A stretch of 64,000 nucleotides of DNA from Alphaproteobacteria bacterium (GTDB lineage Bacteria > Pseudomonadota > Alphaproteobacteria > Caulobacterales > Maricaulaceae): positions 248,001-312,000 of the forward strand of contig WGOD01000001.1 in the NCBI GenBank assembly GCA_016124205.1. The letters run 5' to 3'. Shown in pieces: positions 31,456-39,954 of the stretch. The position numbers were made by a program, and so were the translations under genes. The notes under the pieces were generated by a model. That model made no database searches and was not told where the DNA came from. It worked only from the letters and a program-made list of their open reading frames with translations. How positions within the stretch are numbered: the first letter of the stretch is position 1; each line of letters begins with the position of its first letter.

Positions 31456-31484
31456 TGATCCGATTTGCATCCGTTTGCGTAGAC
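31456..31484 (+). promoter_or_regulatory. ECF sigma (RpoE/singlet-oxygen type) promoter
   Basis: TGATCC (31456-31461), 18-nt spacer, TAGAC (31480-31484). Rhodobacter sphaeroides RpoE promoters read TGATCC-N18-TAAGA. The -35 and spacing are exact and the -10 is partial. An AAGGAG and GTG 31512 follow at the right distance. A matching promoter of the opposite orientation lies at 39926-39954. Confidence 0.7.
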
Positions 31485-31511
31485 CCCTTGAGAAGCAAGG
31501 AGACTGACCGC

Positions 31512-32123
31512 GTGGCTGCCATTCCTGACGACAGCTGGTTTGCGGACTACGCCGCCGGTGCTGGTCCGGCGGCCGTTCGCACGCTGATTTCCGCACAGAT
31601 CGAGATCAATCCTGACGCCGCACGGCGGGCAGCCTTTTTTGATGCGATTGCCAGCGAGTTCGCCCTGTCCGACGTTTCGCTCGCGGGTAACGCTCCCGAC
31701 GATCTCGACGATTTCCTTCGAATTCCGGACCAACAGCCTGACGCGATCTATCCGTCGGCGCTTGCCCGTCTGGGTTTCTCCAGTGACCGAAAGCCCTGGC
31801 GCAGCCATTTGGGCGGCGTCAGCGCGCGCAAGATCAAGCGTTTGTGCGCGCCGGGTGTGGACGCGCGCCTGTTCCGCTTCGCGCCCGGCGCCGCGATTCC
31901 GCAGCATGATCACGGCGGGGAAGAAATGACGCTGGTTCTGACCGGCGGATTCGCCGACGAGAAGGGCGTCTATCACCGCGGCGACGTGGCCGTCGGCCGG
32001 GCCGGAGAGGCGCATACGCCGATGGGTCTGCCCGGTGAGCCCTGCATCTGTTTCGCGGTGTCCGTTGGCGGTTACCGCTTCCGCAATCCGCTGATGTCGC
32101 TGGCCGCGCGCTGGCTGGAGTAG
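31512..32123 (+). CDS. ChrR-like cupin, anti-sigma zinc site lost
   Basis: 203 residues from GTG 31512 (AAGGAG at 31496-31501). The C-terminal cupin keeps the metal ligands of the R. sphaeroides anti-sigma factor ChrR: H132, H134, E138 and H168 here have the same spacing as its H141, H143, E147, H177. The N-terminal helices (SWFADYAAGAGPAAVRTLISAQ) resemble the ChrR anti-sigma domain, but its zinc ligands are gone: the H..C..C positions read Q, N and A (SAQIEINPDAARR). It may be a ChrR-derived sensor that does not need zinc, or no longer an anti-sigma factor. First gene of a four-gene operon. Confidence 0.75.
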   Translation: MAAIPDDSWFADYAAGAGPAAVRTLISAQIEINPDAARRAAFFDAIASEFALSDVSLAGNAPDDLDDFLRIPDQQPDAIYPSALARLGFSSDRKPWRSHLGGVSARKIKRLCAPGVDARLFRFAPGAAIPQHDHGGEEMTLVLTGGFADEKGVYHRGDVAVGRAGEAHTPMGLPGEPCICFAVSVGGYRFRNPLMSLAARWLE

Positions 32124-32127
32124 TTTC

Positions 32128-32844
32128 ATGACGACTTTGATCTTTGGCGCGACCGGCGGTGTCGGCGCGGCGCTCGCACGCCGGCTCGTGGATCGCGATA
32201 TCGTCGTTCACCTCGCCGGCCGGGATGAGTCCAAACTCGCCGCGTTGCATGACGAACTGGGGTCGCCGACGACGGTTTGCGACGTGCTCGACGACGCGCA
32301 AATTGCTGCGGCGGTCGAGGCTGCCGGACCCGACCTGTCCGGGCTGGCCTTCTGCGTCGGATCGATCGATCTCGCCCCGCTGCGCCGGGTCGACCGGGAT
32401 CTGGTCCGCAAGAGTGTCGAGCTGAATGCGGTCAGCGCCGCCATGGCGCTGAAGGCTGCGGAAGGTGCGCTGAAGAAGAACAATGGCTCGGCCGTCCTGT
32501 TCTCATCGGTCGCCGTCGCTCAGGGCTTTGCCCAGCACGCCGCGATTTCCGCGGCCAAGGGCGCCGTCGAGGGGCTTGTCCGTGCCGTCGCGGCGGAATG
32601 GGCGCCCAAGGCGCGGATCAACGCCATCGCGCCGAGCCTGATGAAGACCGGCATTGCCGAGCCGATGACTGCCAACGAGGCGGTTGCGGACGGCATTGCG
32701 AAAATGCATCCCATGGCGCGGCTTGGAGAGGCGAATGACGCCGCTGCGCTGGCGGATTTCCTGTTGTCGGAGGACGCAGGTTGGATTTGCGGTGAAGTGT
32801 TTGCCGTCGACGGGGGACGTGGACGGGTCAGAAGCAGAGGATGA
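32128..32844 (+). CDS. short-chain dehydrogenase/reductase lacking the catalytic Tyr
   Basis: 238 residues. The Rossmann loop is FGATGGVGAALAR; N100 and S126/S127 (LFSSVAVAQGF) are in place, and K144 is in the AISAAKGAVEGL segment. The Tyr that precedes Lys by four residues in the YxxxK motif is Ile140. Members of the family with ISAAK occur in proteobacteria, so the protein is likely a real but non-canonical clade; NAD(P)-dependent oxidoreductase activity is uncertain. It begins 4 nt after the ChrR-like gene and ends 4 nt before the next. Confidence 0.85.
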   Translation: MTTLIFGATGGVGAALARRLVDRDIVVHLAGRDESKLAALHDELGSPTTVCDVLDDAQIAAAVEAAGPDLSGLAFCVGSIDLAPLRRVDRDLVRKSVELNAVSAAMALKAAEGALKKNNGSAVLFSSVAVAQGFAQHAAISAAKGAVEGLVRAVAAEWAPKARINAIAPSLMKTGIAEPMTANEAVADGIAKMHPMARLGEANDAAALADFLLSEDAGWICGEVFAVDGGRGRVRSRG

Positions 32845-32848
32845 CCTG

Positions 32849-33511
32849 ATGAAACGCCTGATGATTTCCGCCGCCGTGCTGCCCTTCCTGGCCGGCTCGG
32901 CCTTGGCAACCGATTTTGCCCCGCAGTCAGGGTCGGTGATCGCGTTCGATGTCATGCGCGGCGACAGCCCCATGGGCACGCACACGATCACCTTCGAACG
33001 CGATGGCGACCGTCTGGTGGCCACGACCGATGTCGATCTGCGTGTCAGCTTCGGCCCCGTGACCTTCTTCCGCTACGAACATGAAGCCCGCGAAGTCTGG
33101 ATGGGCGACCGTCTGGTGTCGTTCAGCTCCGAAACGCTGAAAGACGGCAATGACCTTGAAGTGGCCGCCGAACGCGCGGGCGATGAGCTCGCCATCGATG
33201 GCATGACCTATGAGGAAGAACCGGTTTCGCTGACCCTTCCGGCGACACTGGCCTTGTCGAGCCATTGGCGGGGATACGATCCCGAGGCTTCGGTGATTTT
33301 CAACACCGAGACCGGCCAGGAAATGGAAGTCGAGATCGAGGAAGTCGGGACCGAAACCATCACGGTCATGGGCCGCGAGATCGAGGCAAGGCGCATCCGG
33401 ATGGCCGGCTCGCTGACGGTTGACCTCTGGTACGGACCGGACGACGAATGGGTGAAGTGCGCCTTCGAGGCGCGCGGTGAAACCATCACCTATGTTCGCC
33501 GGGACGCCTGA
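32849..33511 (+). CDS. exported DUF6134-like protein
   Basis: 220 residues. A Sec signal (MKRLMISAAVLPFLAGSALA) precedes a beta-rich domain: VIAFDVMRGDSPMGTHTITFERDG, VDLRVSFGPVTFFRYEHEAREVWMGDRLVSF (in parts) and a C-terminal EIEARRIRMAGSLTVDLWYGPDDEWVK. This resembles the DUF6134 / DUF3108 type that may handle lipids in the periplasm, but no function is established. Operon position between the SDR and the photolyase. Confidence 0.7.
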   Translation: MKRLMISAAVLPFLAGSALATDFAPQSGSVIAFDVMRGDSPMGTHTITFERDGDRLVATTDVDLRVSFGPVTFFRYEHEAREVWMGDRLVSFSSETLKDGNDLEVAAERAGDELAIDGMTYEEEPVSLTLPATLALSSHWRGYDPEASVIFNTETGQEMEVEIEEVGTETITVMGREIEARRIRMAGSLTVDLWYGPDDEWVKCAFEARGETITYVRRDA

Positions 33512-33514
33512 TCC

Positions 33515-35035
33515 GTGGGCGTGCTGCGGCTGATCCTCGGCGATCAGCTCGACCCTCACATTGCGGCACTGAAAGACGCCGACAAGGACGCCGACCTGAT
33601 CCTCATGGCCGAGGTGATGGAGGAGGCGACCTATGTCCGGCATCACAAGAAAAAGATCGCCTTCCTGTTTTCGGCGATGCGCCATTTCGCGGGTGAGCTC
33701 GAAGAGAAGGGCTATCGGGTCCGCTATGTGAGGCTGGATGCGGCGGGCAATTCCGGTTCGCTCAAGGGTGAGGTCGCGCGGGCCCTCAAGGAGGGATCAT
33801 TCGAGCGGGTGGTCGTGACCGAACCGGGGGAGTACCGGCTCAAAGCCGGCATGGACACCTGGTCCGACGCGCTCGGCCTGCCGGTCGAGATCCGCGAGGA
33901 TGACCGGTTCATCTGCTCGCACGAGGATTTCCGGAACTGGGCGCGGGGCCGCCAGCGCCTGACGATGGAATATTTCTACCGCGAGATGCGCCGAAAGACC
34001 GGCCTCCTGATGAAGGGGGACAAGCCTGAAGGCGGTCAGTGGAATTACGACAAGGAGAACCGCAAACCGCCAAAGGACGGTCTCGATTTCCCAAGGCGCG
34101 TGACGCGGATTCCCGACGACACGACGAAGGCGGTTCTGGATCTGGTCGCGGAGCGGTTCGCCGATCATCCGGGTGATCTGGAGCCGTTCGGCTTCGCGGT
34201 CACGCGCGAGGAGGCCATGCGCGAACGCGATGCCTTCATGGAAAAGGCGCTGCCGTATTTTGGTGACTATCAGGACGCGATGGTCGCGGGCGAGCCGTGG
34301 CTCTACCACTCCGTCCTGTCGCTCTACATGAATTGCGGCCTGCTCGATCCGCGCGATGTCTGCGAGCGCGCCGAACAGGCCTACCGGGACGGGCACGCAC
34401 CGCTGAATGCGGTGGAAGGCTTCATCCGCCAGATCCTCGGCTGGCGGGAATATGTCCGCGGCCTCTACTGGCTGAAAATGCCGGACTATGCCGAGAGCAA
34501 TTTCCTGATGGCGCAGCACAAGCTGCCGGACTTCTACTGGACAGGCGAGACCGACATGGCTTGTCTTGCCGACGCGATCGGCACGACGCTGAAACACGCC
34601 TATGCCCACCACATCCAGCGACTGACGATCACCGGGGCCTTTGCGCTCCTCGTCGGCATTCGCCCCAGCGAGGTCGAGGACTGGTATCTGCTGGTCTATG
34701 CCGACGCGTACGAATGGGTGGAATTGCCGAACACGCACGGCATGGCGCTGTTTGCCGATGGCGGGCTGATGGCGACGAAGCCCTATGCGGTCTCAGGCAG
34801 CTACATCAACAAGATGAGCAATTATTGCGGGTCATGCGCCTACAGCGTGAAAGATAGGACCGGCAAAAAAGCGTGTCCGTTCAATTATCTCTACTGGGAT
34901 TTTCTGGCACGAAATGAAGAGCGCCTGAAGGGCAATCACCGCCTGGCAATGCCCTACAGGACGCTCGAGAAAATGGATCCGGAACAGGTTGAGGCGATGC
35001 GCGCCGAGGCACGCCGATTCCTCGACGCGCTATGA
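33515..35035 (+). CDS. FeS-type cryptochrome / prokaryotic (6-4) photolyase
   Basis: Repairs UV (6-4) photoproducts or signals in light, with FAD, a lumazine-type antenna and a [4Fe-4S] cluster. 506 residues. The four cluster Cys are C350 (TDMACLADAI), C438 and C441 (YCGSCAYS) and C454 (KKACPFNYLYWDF), the same numbering as reported for Agrobacterium PhrB. GTG start 33515 is 4 nt after the previous stop. It is the last gene of the + operon and its TGA abuts the stop of cfa (CTATGA). Confidence 0.92.
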   Translation: MGVLRLILGDQLDPHIAALKDADKDADLILMAEVMEEATYVRHHKKKIAFLFSAMRHFAGELEEKGYRVRYVRLDAAGNSGSLKGEVARALKEGSFERVVVTEPGEYRLKAGMDTWSDALGLPVEIREDDRFICSHEDFRNWARGRQRLTMEYFYREMRRKTGLLMKGDKPEGGQWNYDKENRKPPKDGLDFPRRVTRIPDDTTKAVLDLVAERFADHPGDLEPFGFAVTREEAMRERDAFMEKALPYFGDYQDAMVAGEPWLYHSVLSLYMNCGLLDPRDVCERAEQAYRDGHAPLNAVEGFIRQILGWREYVRGLYWLKMPDYAESNFLMAQHKLPDFYWTGETDMACLADAIGTTLKHAYAHHIQRLTITGAFALLVGIRPSEVEDWYLLVYADAYEWVELPNTHGMALFADGGLMATKPYAVSGSYINKMSNYCGSCAYSVKDRTGKKACPFNYLYWDFLARNEERLKGNHRLAMPYRTLEKMDPEQVEAMRAEARRFLDAL

Positions 35036-36280
35036 TTTCGCCAGCGCGTATTGCGCGACGTCGATCCGTCCGGTCTTGAAGCCGGCCTCGCAATAGCTGA
35101 GGTAGAATTTCCACATCCGGCGGAAGCGCTCGTCAAAGCCCATCGGCTGGATCGTGTCCCATTTCTCCTCGAAGCGTTCGTGCCATTCGGCCAGGGTGCG
35201 CGCGTAGTCGAGCGCGAAGCTCTCGACGGTCTTCAGCGCGAGCTTCGCCTTGTCGAACTCCTCGTTCAGCTTCTCCTTCGACGGCAGAATGCCGCCCGGG
35301 AAGATGTAGCGCTGAATGAAGTCCGCGCGCTTGGCATACGCCTCGAAGATGTCGTCGCGGATCGAGATGATCTGGAGGCCGGCCCGGCCGCCGGGTTTCA
35401 GGACGTCGGAGACTTTCGAGAAGAAGGACGGCCAGTATTCCTGACCGACCGCCTCGAACATCTCGATCGATGCGACCCGGTCATAGGTGCCGGTCTCGTC
35501 GCGATAGTCCTGAAGCTTGATCTCCACGCGGTCGGACAGTTGCAGCCGCTCCATCCGCTCGATCGCGTATTCGCGCTGCGACGGGGAAAGCGTCAGACAG
35601 GTCACTCGTGCCCCGACATCGCGCGCGGCGTATTCGGCGAAGCCGCCCCAGCCACAGCCGATTTCGAGGACATGGTGGTCCTTCTCGAGCCCGATCATCT
35701 CGGCGAGCTGGCGGTATTTCGAGCGCTGCGCATCCTCGAGCGTCTGGCTTTCGCTTTCGAAGCGGGCCGAGGAATAGGTCATCGTGGGGTCGAGCCACTG
35801 CTCGTAGAAATCATTCCCGAGGTCGTAGTGGGCCTCGATATTCTTGCGCGCGCCCTTGCGCGTGTTGGGGCGCATGCGGTGATAGATCCAGTGCACGAAG
35901 CGCTGCACCGGCCCGCCCTTGGCGAGGTCCGGCTGGTTATCGAGATTGGACGAGAAAAGCTCGAGCAGCGCCGTCAGGTCGGGCGTGTCCCACTGATCGG
36001 CCATATAGCCTTCGGCAAAACCGATATCGCCGCCGGCCGCCGCGCGGCCGATGCAGCGATAGTCGTGGATCACAAATTCGGCCGCGGGGCCGGGCAATTC
36101 ACCCTCGAACAGGAGCGCCTTTCCGTTCGGCAGTGTGACTTTCAGCGTGCCGATGCGGATTTTCAGCAGCATTCGGAAGGCGATCCGGGCGGTCGCCGGG
36201 ACTTTTCTGAGACGCGAAAGGACCTCGCGCGTGGCGATTTCCACGTTGGAGGCGCGGGCGTTCATCGTGACGTCGGCCAT
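35030..36280 (-). CDS. cfa: cyclopropane-fatty-acid-synthase family methyltransferase
   Basis: SAM-dependent transfer of a methyl(ene) to phospholipid unsaturated acyl chains. 416 residues: YMADQWDTPDLTALLELF (membrane-side N-terminal region), HYDLGNDFYEQWLDPTMTYSS (in part), the SAM loop VLEIGCGWGGFAEYA and FIQRYIFPGGILPS. It could make cyclopropane fatty acids or the methyl intermediates of furan fatty acids; the neighbouring FAD protein and DUF1365 protein make the second alternative worth testing. Last gene of the minus-strand operon. Confidence 0.9.
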   Translation of the reverse strand: MADVTMNARASNVEIATREVLSRLRKVPATARIAFRMLLKIRIGTLKVTLPNGKALLFEGELPGPAAEFVIHDYRCIGRAAAGGDIGFAEGYMADQWDTPDLTALLELFSSNLDNQPDLAKGGPVQRFVHWIYHRMRPNTRKGARKNIEAHYDLGNDFYEQWLDPTMTYSSARFESESQTLEDAQRSKYRQLAEMIGLEKDHHVLEIGCGWGGFAEYAARDVGARVTCLTLSPSQREYAIERMERLQLSDRVEIKLQDYRDETGTYDRVASIEMFEAVGQEYWPSFFSKVSDVLKPGGRAGLQIISIRDDIFEAYAKRADFIQRYIFPGGILPSKEKLNEEFDKAKLALKTVESFALDYARTLAEWHERFEEKWDTIQPMGFDERFRRMWKFYLSYCEAGFKTGRIDVAQYALAKS

Positions 36281-36289
36281 GAGCGAATA

Positions 36290-37081
36290 TTACTCCGAAA
36301 CAGACCCGGTTCCAAACCGGGCGGAGGTGAGAGGGCGTGATGGCGGCGTGGGTCTGGGGTGGTAACGCGCACCCTTCAGCCACAGTTTCAGTGCTTCGAA
36401 ATGGATCGCCGCGATCGTCTTGTGTGTCGAAAAGGGCTGGCGCAGGAAAAGCTTCCACAGCGAGCTCGACGTCGCTTCCTGCCGGATGAGCGTCATCGAG
36501 GCGGTGAAGTCGGTCTCGCCGGAGACGGACTTCACGATGGAAAGTCCCAGACGGTCGTCGCCGGGTTTCAGGGAAAATCCGTACTGACCCTCGACGCCGA
36601 AGAAGGGCGAGACGTGGAAACTCTTGGTGGCCCGGTGATGCAGGTCTTCGTCGGAGCGAATGCGAACGCCGTAGGTATGCGCGTCGCCGAACGTGTTGTG
36701 GACCTCGTAGAGGGCGCCACGCAGAGCGCCGTCCGGGCCGTAACCCAGCCAGACCGAGATCGGATTGAACTGGTAACCGAGTACGCGGGGCTGACAGACC
36801 AGGCGAATTGAGCCGCCATCGAGCTCGACGCCAACCTCCGCGAAACGCTTCAGCGCCCAGTCCCTGAGGTCGCTACCGTCGCGTGCGCCGTGGTCCCCGG
36901 GGTGGAAGCTGAACAGGTTGAACTTGCCGACACTGAACCAGCGCGACGTAGCCGCGGCGTCGTCCAGCCGGTCGAGATCAAGGCCGATATAGGCAATCCG
37001 GTAGCCGAAGCGGTGCGTGAACGGCTTGGTTCGCGCATGCACGGTGCGGCCTGGCCAGAGGGAGAGGGCGGGGAAGCTCAC
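36290..37081 (-). CDS. DUF1365 family protein
   Basis: 263 residues, soluble: TVHARTKPFTHRFGYRIAYIGLDLDRL, FNLFSFHPGDHGARDGSDLRDWALK (in parts), QPRVLGYQFNPISVWLGYG, ALYEVHNTFGDAHTYG and the F-H-V-S-P-F-F motif. The family has no fixed function but regularly sits with amine-oxidase-like and CFA synthase genes. It overlaps the FAD protein gene by 4 nt and is 9 nt before cfa. Confidence 0.85.
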   Translation of the reverse strand: MSFPALSLWPGRTVHARTKPFTHRFGYRIAYIGLDLDRLDDAAATSRWFSVGKFNLFSFHPGDHGARDGSDLRDWALKRFAEVGVELDGGSIRLVCQPRVLGYQFNPISVWLGYGPDGALRGALYEVHNTFGDAHTYGVRIRSDEDLHHRATKSFHVSPFFGVEGQYGFSLKPGDDRLGLSIVKSVSGETDFTASMTLIRQEATSSSLWKLFLRQPFSTHKTIAAIHFEALKLWLKGARYHPRPTPPSRPLTSARFGTGSVSE

Positions 37082-38448
37082 TCCGCTGCCACCCAGGCTG
37101 CAGCCTTCGACGGTCCGGCCACCTGATCCGGCCAGGCGCCGCCATCGACATCGCCTTCGGCGAATTGCCAGGGGATCTGACCGCCCAGTTTGAGCGCGAC
37201 GCGAAGGCCGGCCCGCAAACCGTCCTCGTGGAAGCCGTAGCCCAGCCAGGCACCGGCGAACCAGACATTCCGGCGACCCTGGATGCGGTTGAAGATGCGC
37301 TGCGCGGCAAGGCCGGCGCGGTTGAACTGCGGGTGGTCGTATTCGAACACGCCAAAGGTCAGTGCCGGATCTGGTAGACGGTCCGGATTCAGCGTCACAT
37401 AGACCGGCGTTTCGGCCGGGATGCCCTGAAGACGGTTCATGTCATAGGTGACGCATGCCGGCGCATCGGGTTCCCGGCGAAGATAATTCCAGGCGGCGTG
37501 TGCGCCCTTGCGGTCCGGCATAAAGGACGGGTCGCGGTGCAGGACAACACGGTTCGGTGCGTAGGGGATCGCCGCCAGCATGTCGCGCTCCTCGGCGTCG
37601 GCATCCGAGAGCATTCCAAGGGCCTGATCGCTGTGACAGGCCAGAATCACATCGTCATAAACCGCGCTGGTGCCATCCTCGGTCACGACGATGGCCTTTC
37701 CGCCTGCGCGTCGCACTTCGCGCACCGGGCTCGACAGGAGGACCCGGTCACCCAGATCGCGGGCGAGGGCCTCGACATAGGTGCGGCTGCCGCCGGTGAC
37801 CGTGCGCCATTGCGGGCGCTGCATGTTCATCAGCCGGTGGTTCTTGAAGAAGCGGATCAGCGCGTCGGCCGGATAGTCGAGCATTCCGTCCTCAGTGGAC
37901 GACCAGATCGCGGCTCCCATCGGCAGCAGATAGTTGACCCGGAAGCGTTCGCCGAAACCATGACGGTCGAGAAACTGGCCGATGGTCAGGCCGTCGAGCT
38001 CGCCGGCCTCGAGGGCCGCCGGGGCGAGATCATTGAAACGCAGAATGTCCCGCAGCATGGCGAGATAAGACGGATTCAGCAGGTTGCGCTTCTGCGCAAA
38101 CACGCCGCCGAGACCGTTCGAACACCATTCGAACTGGCCCTTCAGGGCGAAGCCGAAACTCATGTCGGCCTCGGTGGAGGCGATGCCGAGATGCTCGAAC
38201 AGGCCGCAGAGATTGGGGTAGTTCAGCGGGTTGAAAACGATGAAGCCGGTATCGACCGCGATGGGCGTGCCATCATAGTCGATATCGACCGTGGCGGAGT
38301 GTCCGCCGAGCCGGTCGCGCTTTTCATATAGTGTGACGTCATGCGTGTCGCGCAGCGACCAGGCGGCACCGAGCCCGGCGATGCCGGAGCCGATGACGGC
38401 GATGCGCTTGCGGTCGCTCGTGGGGTGCAGGTCTACGATTTCAGTCAC
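37078..38448 (-). CDS. FAD-dependent amine-oxidase-like protein
   Basis: 456 residues. The dinucleotide fold IAVIGSGIAGLGAAWSLRDTHDVTLYEK with the GG motif RLGGHSATVD, then PLNYPNLCGLFEHLG, and C-terminal NVWFAGAWLGYGFHEDGLRAGLRVA. Related proteins act as desaturases or oxidases; the neighbours suggest lipid modification. GTG 38448 overlaps the phrB stop (GTGA); the longer frame upstream lies inside phrB and is not homologous. Its stop overlaps DUF1365. Confidence 0.85.
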   Translation of the reverse strand: MTEIVDLHPTSDRKRIAVIGSGIAGLGAAWSLRDTHDVTLYEKRDRLGGHSATVDIDYDGTPIAVDTGFIVFNPLNYPNLCGLFEHLGIASTEADMSFGFALKGQFEWCSNGLGGVFAQKRNLLNPSYLAMLRDILRFNDLAPAALEAGELDGLTIGQFLDRHGFGERFRVNYLLPMGAAIWSSTEDGMLDYPADALIRFFKNHRLMNMQRPQWRTVTGGSRTYVEALARDLGDRVLLSSPVREVRRAGGKAIVVTEDGTSAVYDDVILACHSDQALGMLSDADAEERDMLAAIPYAPNRVVLHRDPSFMPDRKGAHAAWNYLRREPDAPACVTYDMNRLQGIPAETPVYVTLNPDRLPDPALTFGVFEYDHPQFNRAGLAAQRIFNRIQGRRNVWFAGAWLGYGFHEDGLRAGLRVALKLGGQIPWQFAEGDVDGGAWPDQVAGPSKAAAWVAAE

Positions 38449-39893
38449 GCGGCCTCCTTCAGGCCCTTGAAGGCCGCCAGCGCGCGTTCGCGCGCCTGAG
38501 AATGATCGACAATGGGTTCGGGATAGGTCGTGCCCAGCTTTATGCCGGCCTGTGCCAGCACCGAGGCGGGTGCGGTCCACGGGGCGTGGATGTATTTCAC
38601 CGGCAGCTTTGCCAGCTCCGGCACGAAGCGTTTCACATATTTTCCGTCGGGGTCGAATTTCTCGCCCTGGGTGATCGGATTGAAGATCCGGAAATAGGGC
38701 GCCGCGTCGGCGCCGGACCCGGCGACCCACTGCCAGCTGGCCGAATTGTTCGCCAGATCCGCATCAACCAGCGTGTCCCAGAACCAGTCCTGTCCGCGCC
38801 GCCAGTCGATTAGCAAATGCTTGATCAGGAAGGAGGCCGCGATCATCCGGACACGGTTGTGCATCCAGCCGGTCTGCCAGAGCTGGCGCATGCCGGCATC
38901 GACCACGGGGTAGCCGGTCTGCCCCTTCGTCCACGCCGTGAAGGCGTCGTCGTTCCCGGACCATGGAAAGCCGTCGAACTTGTCCTGATAGTTCCGGTCC
39001 GGGAAATGCGGGAAGTGGAAGAGCAAATTGTAGGAGAATTCGCGCCAGCCGACCTCCGACAAGAATTTGTCGGCATTCTTGCCTTCCGACCGGCTGCGTG
39101 TCTGGTGCCAGATCTGGCGCGGTGAGATTTCGCCCCAATGCAGGTGCGGGCTGAGGCCGCTCGTGTCGTCGCGGTCCGGGCGGTCGCGGCCATCGGCGTA
39201 GGACAACAGGCGTTCATCGAGGAAATCGCTCAGCCGTTCCGCGGCCCCGGCCTCGCCCGGCGTCCAGTGATCGGAAAAGCCCTTGGCCCAATCCGGCCTA
39301 GACGGGGTCAGCTTCCAATCTGCCAGATCGTCCGAGGCAATCGATTTCCAGGGTTTGATCGATTTCGGCGCGGGCAGGGGATCGGCCGGATCGATGACCT
39401 CCCGTTCCGCGCGCCAGAAGGGCGTGAAGACCTTGTAGGGGTCGCCGGTCTTCGTCTGGACAGTCCAGGGCTCGGCGAGCAGCGAGCCGTTGAAACTTGC
39501 CGCGTCGACGCCCTTGTCCTTGAGTGCCGACTTGATCGTTTCGTCGCGCTTTCGGGCGAAGGGTTCGTAGCAGCGATTCCAGAAAACGGCGGATGCGCCG
39601 GTTTCCTCGACCAGATCGGCGATGACCTTGTCCGACGGACCCGAGCGCAAAACGAGATGAACGCCGCGCGTTTCCAGATCGGCGGCGAGCTTCTCCAGTG
39701 AATGATGCAGCCACCAGCGCGATGCGCCGCCCCGAGCCCACTTTCCCGGCGTGTCGTCGTCGAGGACGAAAACCGGGATGACCGGAGCGCCGGATTCGGC
39801 GGCCTGATGCAGCGCCGGATTGTCTGACAGGCGCAAATCCTGCCGGAACCAGACGATAGCAGGACCGGATTGGGTGGAGGCAGATGACGACAA
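38445..39893 (-). CDS. phrB: deoxyribodipyrimidine photolyase (CPD class I)
   Basis: Light-driven repair of cyclobutane dimers using FAD and an antenna. 482 residues: antenna domain IVWFRQDLRLSDNPALHQA and VLDDDT, then the FAD domain SPHLHWGEISPRQIWHQ, EVGWREFSYNLLFHFP, GYPVVDAGMRQLWQTGWMHNRVRMI (in parts), HLLIDWRRGQDWFWDTLVDADLANNSASWQWVAGSG (in parts). The start is TTG 39893, consistent with the promoter just upstream. First gene of the minus-strand operon. Confidence 0.93.
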   Translation of the reverse strand: MSSSASTQSGPAIVWFRQDLRLSDNPALHQAAESGAPVIPVFVLDDDTPGKWARGGASRWWLHHSLEKLAADLETRGVHLVLRSGPSDKVIADLVEETGASAVFWNRCYEPFARKRDETIKSALKDKGVDAASFNGSLLAEPWTVQTKTGDPYKVFTPFWRAEREVIDPADPLPAPKSIKPWKSIASDDLADWKLTPSRPDWAKGFSDHWTPGEAGAAERLSDFLDERLLSYADGRDRPDRDDTSGLSPHLHWGEISPRQIWHQTRSRSEGKNADKFLSEVGWREFSYNLLFHFPHFPDRNYQDKFDGFPWSGNDDAFTAWTKGQTGYPVVDAGMRQLWQTGWMHNRVRMIAASFLIKHLLIDWRRGQDWFWDTLVDADLANNSASWQWVAGSGADAAPYFRIFNPITQGEKFDPDGKYVKRFVPELAKLPVKYIHAPWTAPASVLAQAGIKLGTTYPEPIVDHSQARERALAAFKGLKEAA

Positions 39894-39925
39894 GAGCGCA
39901 GGGGCCTTCTATTCTTCTTGCCTAA

Positions 39926-39954
39926 AATTACGTAAGAGGCCCGAAACTGGATCA
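39926..39954 (-). promoter_or_regulatory. ECF sigma (RpoE/singlet-oxygen type) promoter of the phrB operon
   Basis: On the minus strand: TGATCC (39954-39949), 18-nt spacer, TAATT (39930-39926), giving a leader of about 30 nt before TTG 39893. Same -35 and spacing as the promoter at 31456, facing it across 8.4 kb. Confidence 0.65.

Follow-up and report, generated by a model that had tools for sequence, protein, structure and literature searches.

A ChrR paralog without a sigma neighbour, led by a predicted ECF11-type promoter, in a Maricaulis-like genome

The locus and its gene content

The window considered here, i.e. the whole 64 kb stretch of DNA that was analysed, contains an open reading frame with a GTG start codon which encodes a ChrR-like protein (Table 1). 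This protein (hereafter, the window protein) is matched by: (i) the ChrR model TIGR02451, over residues 5-195 (E 1.2e-25); (ii) Pfam Cupin_7 (E 5.9e-15); and (iii) the ChrR structure PDB 2z2s, over residues 7-191 (E 4.2e-15). Despite the extent of the TIGR02451 alignment, its 90.6 bits fall short of the curated cut-off (124.5 bits). Together with a structural match to 2q1z (Z 22.4), these matches bear out the ChrR-like character that a preliminary description had attributed to the protein. The nearest named relative (68%) belongs to Maricaulis sp. IN14, and the host genome is Maricaulis-like.

Table 1. Position and strand of the genes, signals and protein parts at the locus, with the basis of each assignment
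Feature	Coordinates	Strand	Basis
Predicted ECF11-type promoter, TGATCC-N16-CGTA	31456..31481	+	Exact consensus match
Shine-Dalgarno-like AAGGAG	31497..31502	+	Sequence
Sigma-less ChrR paralog, 203 aa	31512..32123	+	TIGR02451, Pfam Cupin_7, PDB 2z2s; 2q1z structure match
Helices I-III of the ASD (residues 7-54), with substitutions at the zinc ligands	31530..31673	+	AlphaFold2 model, alignment
Position expected for ASD helix IV (residues 55-70); no predicted helix of >=4 residues, pLDDT <50	31674..31721	+	AlphaFold2, profile tests
Cupin barrel (residues 97-190) with H132, H134, E138, H168 and C178-x-C180	31800..32081	+	Alignment, AlphaFold2
SDR-family oxidoreductase	32128..32844	+	Pfam
DUF6134 protein	32849..33511	+	Pfam 3.9e-48; start from sequence
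Deoxyribodipyrimidine photolyase-related protein (DPRP)	33515..35035	+	Pfam 1.8e-85
CFA/UfaM-like methyltransferase	35030..36280	-	Pfam CMAS 1e-85
DUF1365 protein, perhaps UfaO (RSP1090)-like	36290..37081	-	Pfam DUF1365 8.3e-72
Flavin amine-oxidase-family oxidoreductase	37078..38448	-	Pfam Amino_oxidase 4.4e-29
DNA photolyase (phr)	38445..39893	-	Pfam FAD_binding_7 7.7e-95, DNA_photolyase 1.8e-58
Second predicted ECF11-type promoter, ahead of the gene run that begins with the photolyase	39929..39954	-	Exact consensus

On the plus strand, the chrR-like gene is followed by the SDR, DUF6134 and DPRP genes, each of which starts at most 5 bases past the preceding stop. These genes are faced by a minus-strand run that comprises the DNA photolyase, flavin amine-oxidase-family, DUF1365 and CFA-type methyltransferase genes. 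By gene order, the DUF1365 protein is perhaps like UfaO (RSP1090), and the flavin amine-oxidase-family product is perhaps UfaD (RSP1091)-like. In R. sphaeroides, the furan-fatty-acid genes are those of UfaD (RSP1091), UfaO (RSP1090) and a UfaM- or RSP1089-type enzyme (PMC7380195, PMC3818230), which the flavin amine-oxidase-family, DUF1365 and CFA-type genes of the window, respectively, appear to resemble in their order. The whole minus-strand run (35030-39954 with its promoter) lies behind an exact ECF11-type consensus and is likely a furan-fatty-acid and DNA-repair operon.

No ECF sigma match (TIGR02937, E<=1) was found anywhere in the window, in agreement with the earlier statement that the gene has no adjacent sigma; the closest TIGR02937 match over the cut-off on the contig is located at C1:324593, 12.6 kb past the window end. 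A search of the host genome (69.86% complete) yielded neither a second ChrR nor an ECF11-type sigma. An ECF11-type sigma is present in the genome that harbours the nearest relative of the window protein (G001) and, in related genomes, a second ChrR lies directly behind an ECF sigma. The preliminary description had considered that a full-length ChrR with its own sigma might be found nearby: such pairs do exist, elsewhere in the genomes of relatives and not near the paralog. The label ECF11-type, as applied here to a sigma, is based on its ChrR neighbour and on the promoter.

Occurrence of sigma-less ChrR paralogs

Co-occurrence was surveyed in 149 sampled genomes of the order, the host genome being excluded. 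At least 41 of them carry a ChrR match away from any sigma match, as judged by eye on coordinates. All 41 genomes with a listed sigma-less ChrR contain a sigma (weakest E 2.3e-55), and a sigma match at E<=1e-25, weak in some cases, was found in 75 of the remaining 108. Within the genus, the ChrR-like protein, the sigma and the DUF1365 protein are all present in five of seven relatives (G001, G003, G005, G006 and G007); none of the three was found in the other two (G002 and G004). In addition, one genome (G144) has a sigma gene at 1341-2033 on the minus strand of locus L143 (G144:C23:5000-9000), with its own ECF11 promoter and no adjoining ChrR; the only ChrR match of that genome is a sigma-less paralog on another contig. 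Genome G144 thus represents a natural test of action in trans.

Forty sigma-less loci were compared in detail. None of them contains a sigma, and DUF6134 and either cysM or rhodanese are each present in 39. The later 20 of these loci correspond to 20 of the 28 then unseen among the listed 41, and the 20 sigma loci taken from genomes without the paralog were the highest in the ChrR score list rather than a random draw. Before counting, the following rows were dropped: (i) L102, the same gene as L059; (ii) L042, a near copy of L043; and (iii) L100 and L101, which are short and have no anti-sigma domain (ASD). The last two (G028:C4 and G011:C2) are ChrR matches that perhaps correspond to double-cupin proteins like 3o14. 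As the rows are related, Fisher values are nominal. Restriction of the paralog to one family was ruled out, for it is present in families f1, f2 and f4 and in other alphaproteobacterial MAGs. The gene is dispensable, since two genomes (G019 and G010) retain the locus without it.

The ECF11-type promoter

The string TGATCC-N16-CGTA is the reported promoter consensus for a P. syringae sigma of ECF11 type, and has also been seen in Shewanella (PMC5507510, PMC4336711). It occurs twice in the 64 kb window, each time upstream of one of the two gene sets, and at least two occurrences were found in none of 100 shuffles. The exact consensus ahead of the paralog points to an ECF-type operon headed by this gene, as had been proposed.

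The exact string lies upstream of 39 of the 40 sigma-less rows, and the fortieth (L052) carries it with one mismatch. These 39 comprise 17 of the 20 rows of the first set, L043 and L090 (whose frames start far upstream), and all 20 rows of the later set, which was fetched after the pattern had been fixed on the earlier rows. By comparison, the exact promoter was found at 14 of 73 sigma operons (6/33, 1/20 and 7/20), the sigma start of L051 having been placed by hand because of its very long frame, and in about 1-3% of random stretches, one of these controls being drawn from the same loci. In genomes that have the paralog, sigma operons mostly lack the promoter (0/18 and 1/20 carry one). The idea that feedback has been strictly exchanged, passing from the sigma operon to the paralog, is nevertheless not upheld: in five genomes of the zinc-less sigma-linked clade (L064-L066, L071 and L072), no paralog was detected and the sigma operon has no such promoter either. 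In four genomes, a TGATC[CT]-N16-CGTC-like string recurs close to the Maricaulis sigma-chrR operon (L045:6763, L046:9186, L047:718 and L048:6735); it may represent a weak promoter or simply part of a coding region.

Cupin metal site and ASD zinc ligands

In R. sphaeroides ChrR, the metal ligands are H141, H143, E147 and H177 in the cupin and H31, C35 and C38 in the ASD (PMC6852236). The former align with H132, H134, E138 and H168 of the window protein, so that the cupin ligands previously listed as intact are indeed so. The latter align with Q29, N33 and A36, and the motif H-x3-C-x2-C is absent; H6 of R. sphaeroides ChrR falls beyond the alignment and would correspond, by offset, to I4. The earlier claim that the zinc ligands are all replaced consequently holds for the window protein and not for its whole clade, as the Maricaulis sp. 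IN14 paralog retains a His at the H31 position.

The four cupin ligands (HHEH) are present in 40/40 sigma-less and 71/72 sigma-linked rows. The CxC pair equivalent to C187 and C189 of R. sphaeroides is found in 40/40 sigma-less versus 26/72 sigma-linked rows, 12 of the latter being among the 56 zinc-less ones. Both ASD zinc cysteines are missing from 56 of the 72 sampled ChrRs that adjoin an ECF sigma. The weight formerly placed on zinc loss was therefore misplaced: being common in the order, it does not by itself single out the window protein, and it can be discarded as the defining feature.

According to work on R. sphaeroides, ASD zinc is required for sigma inhibition and C187 and C189 are dispensable for the response (PMC6852236), and ASD groups that mix zinc and zinc-free members are known (PMC7406223). 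Although a ChrR that adjoins a sigma does not necessarily inhibit it, the sigma-linked relatives hint, short of proof, that ASD zinc is not needed by many of the order's ChrRs. In ten tested f3 genomes (L144-L152 and L155), the ChrRs exceed the cut-off of NF051881, an NCBI equivalog for the cadmium/peroxide/UV-responsive ChrR, as does, as a control, that of Caulobacter vibrioides; the zinc cysteine pair is present in 0 of 11 f3 rows, i.e. these ten plus an eleventh. From these rows, we infer that Caulobacter ChrR itself probably lacks the ASD zinc cysteines, in which case the characterised Caulobacter stress system may work without ASD zinc.

Predicted fold and the helices of the ASD

The AlphaFold2 model of the window protein (mean pLDDT 78; of five models, two were confident, at 78.0 and 76.2, and three were not, at about 39) has the two-domain fold of ASD plus cupin. 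It superposes on 2q1z, the ChrR of the SigE-ChrR crystal, with Z 22.4, rmsd 1.7 and 28% identity over 166 residues, long low-confidence stretches having been omitted by the tool. An N-terminal domain unrelated to ChrR, the case envisaged against the assignment, is at odds with this superposition.

In ASDs, sigma region 2 is bound by helix IV, which keeps core polymerase out, and region 4 by helix I (PMC6852236, PMC7406223); 12 of the 14 top predicted sigma contacts fall in helix IV (PMC7406223). In the model of the window protein, the sole helix within residues 55-70 spans three residues (66-68), with pLDDT <50. A helix IV profile scored -0.1 (p 0.11) at residues 55-74; a second run gave p 0.015, but at residues 74-93, which adjoin the cupin. 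For the IN14 paralog, the top score was -9.3. A sigma-linked control (L041; mean pLDDT 66.8) was modelled with helix IV at 64-73, in blocks of pLDDT 36-48; both models were built on five-sequence alignments, which limits what can be deduced about this helix. Among all the rows, the profile (p<=0.01) detects helix IV in 8/40 sigma-less paralogs versus 61/72 sigma-linked ChrRs, the 11 sigma-linked failures indicating that it is imperfect; seven of the 14 f1 sigma-less rows match. Helices I-III are recognisable in 40/40 sigma-less rows, and position 14 of helix I is Asp in 38/40 of them versus 11/72 sigma-linked rows. The helix IV clamp on sigma region 2 seems to have been lost from the window protein.

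Relationships and selective constraint

In a tree built from the cupin only, 19 of 20 sigma-less rows form one group, whose support (80/88) is under the tool's own mark, and 23 zinc-less sigma-linked rows form another at 98/95, the remaining zinc-less ones being placed elsewhere; the tree carries a long-branch warning (f2 with f4). A single origin of the sigma-less paralogs is likely from these groupings, though not proved. Outside this group lies the sigma-less ChrR of L043 (L043:7102-7731), located in a cysM-DUF6134 setting, in which the H-x3-C-x2-C motif is complete and whose gene has an ECF11 promoter; it is a possible intermediate.

Median dN/dS values were obtained for three groups of genomes. 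In four Maricaulis genomes, helices I-III have the same value in the sigma-less and sigma-linked genes (0.12 in both) and the cupin practically the same (0.025 vs 0.027), while the linker that holds the place of helix IV is relaxed in the former (0.32 vs 0.15). In seven f4 genomes, helices I-III are more constrained in the sigma-less gene (0.038 vs 0.124) and the linker shows no relaxation (0.055 vs 0.104). In seven f2 genomes, constraint is weaker throughout the sigma-less and the sigma-linked gene alike: 0.24 vs 0.22 for helices I-III, 0.22 vs 0.25 for the cupin, and 0.79 (three pairs) vs 0.24 for the linker. For the window/IN14 pair, synonymous sites are saturated and there is no ratio for helices I-III or the linker. 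Where it can be measured, then, the constraint on helices I-III resembles that of sigma-linked ChrR and, hence, these helices are not debris; the equal values in both Maricaulis genes weaken the case for a vestigial ASD. ASD identity averages 39% (sigma-less) vs 60% (sigma-linked) within Maricaulis, and 72 vs 60% in f4.

Interpretation

On sequence grounds, the window protein is a full-length ChrR homologue that has kept its metal site and has no sigma neighbour, and it is very probably a ChrR paralog belonging to an ECF11 regulon. By the same kind of data, the paralog is set apart by: (i) an undetected helix IV; (ii) an ECF11 promoter of its own; and (iii) a second, sigma-linked ChrR in related genomes.

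The best reading, held with slightly less than even confidence, is that of an ECF11-induced metal cupin that acts in trans on a distant sigma/ChrR circuit without sequestering the sigma. According to this proposal, singlet oxygen or an organic peroxide would release the distant ECF11 sigma, which would then transcribe the paralog gene together with the DPRP and the photolyase and lipid genes. The product, a metal cupin with a three-helix bundle, would act on the same circuit by docking through helices I-III, its target being either region 4 of the sigma or the sigma-linked ChrR. Sequestration is not proposed because the clamp on region 2 is gone; instead, the paralog would tune or sense the response. 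In sister genera, where helix IV is retained, the paralog may still serve as an anti-sigma in a feedback loop. The promoter, the co-occurrence with a sigma, the helix IV counts, the constraint on helices I-III and genome G144 all speak for action in trans, and the earlier suggestion of a distant sigma was right, as a possibility. More specifically, a widespread, sigma-induced paralog in which an anti-sigma has turned trans-acting tuner (a decoy or an anti-anti-sigma), with its clamp lost and its sigma-docking bundle and metal cupin kept, is a rather less likely proposition; if true, sensing and sequestration, which are joined in classical ChrR, would be divided between two proteins.

Several observations stand against action in trans. 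The loss of helix IV, with its 12 of 14 top contacts, argues against any sigma contact, and the partner may differ because helix I does (Asp14). The sigma was not found in the host genome (69.86% complete), the paralog is dispensable, and the helix IV stretch is relaxed in Maricaulis and not in f4. Inhibition of the sigma in R. sphaeroides needs ASD zinc (PMC6852236). Furthermore, a plain regulon effector would show the promoter and the co-occurrence just as well, and this explanation is nearly as likely: an ECF11-induced metal cupin that handles a lipid photo-oxidation product (a peroxide, an aldehyde or a furan-fatty-acid product) or buffers metal, and which does not touch the sigma, its helical domain being needed solely for folding or oligomerisation. 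The invariance of HHEH and the CxC pair (40/40, against CxC in 12/56 zinc-less sigma-linked ChrRs), the low cupin dN/dS in Maricaulis, the adjoining DUF6134 in 39/40 loci, the window run that includes DPRP and faces lipid and photolyase genes, and the failure to detect helix IV in 32/40 sigma-less rows all fit an effector. Nevertheless, helices I-III are recognisable in every row and about as constrained as in sigma-linked ChrR, whose cupin has about the same dN/dS; moreover, the literature passages on ChrR report no activity of its cupin, and C187 and C189 are dispensable in R. sphaeroides (PMC6852236).

Two further explanations deserve consideration. The paralog might be a full, zinc-free anti-sigma that is produced once the distant ECF11 sigma has induced it and that then inhibits this sigma in order to end the response. 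This agrees with the absence of zinc cysteines from most sigma-linked ChrRs, with the promoter on the gene and its scarcity on sigma operons of the same genomes, with the sister-genus paralogs that have helix IV (7/14 f1 rows), and with G144, where a sigma coexists with a sigma-less ChrR as the sole ChrR match. Yet it is disfavoured by the missing helix IV, unpredicted in the window protein and scored at -0.1 there and at best -9.3 in IN14, as well as by the five same-clade genomes in which feedback was not strictly exchanged, and we hold it improbable. Far less credible still is a decaying duplicate heading for loss: the gene has disappeared from the retained locus in G019 and G010, and its ASD is less conserved within Maricaulis than that of sigma-linked ChrR, but the metal site is invariant, the promoter is exact in 39/40 rows, both retained modules are under purifying selection, and the ASD of the f4 paralogs is more conserved than its sigma-linked counterpart.

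Comparison with known systems

Singlet-oxygen sensing by ChrR, and the role of ASD zinc in it, are a standing question (PMC6852236, PMC6432622). In this respect, the paralog offers a natural separation: it retains the metal site of the cupin without the zinc ligands or the clamp, and its gene should still answer the same sigma, which makes the cupin's own role testable. Within open PMC full text, where most subscription journals are uncovered, no paper recognisable from its title or the start of its abstract deals with a sigma-less ChrR paralog.

Four known systems can be compared with the window protein. The Marinobacter 'ChrR' 3o14, which we take to be a double cupin without an ASD, shares the ChrR-type cupin, and its match is limited to residues 90-180. 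The ChrRs of the Caulobacter type (NF051881) likewise lack the ASD zinc cysteines but, unlike the window protein, they have a sigma beside them and match the helix IV profile (11/11); the window protein scores 59.6 bits against NF051881 (cut-off 300), over the cupin only. R. sphaeroides ChrR, the anti-sigma of the ECF11 SigE (2q1z, 2z2s), has the same two-domain fold, cupin metal ligands and CxC pair; in contrast, the window protein lacks a sigma partner gene, the ASD zinc ligands and any detectable helix IV, and its gene has an ECF11 promoter of its own away from any sigma. Finally, the genes of the window, along with its two promoters, are of the types known as targets of the ECF11 core regulon (DPRP plus SDR, phrB, cfa and RSP1087-1091) in R. 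sphaeroides, P. syringae and Shewanella (PMC3818230, PMC7380195, PMC5507510, PMC4336711); the target lists given in these sources include chrR itself and no ChrR paralog, in which the window differs. The known parts are, in short, the ChrR family and the ECF11 regulon, and the sigma-less paralog is a variant within these.
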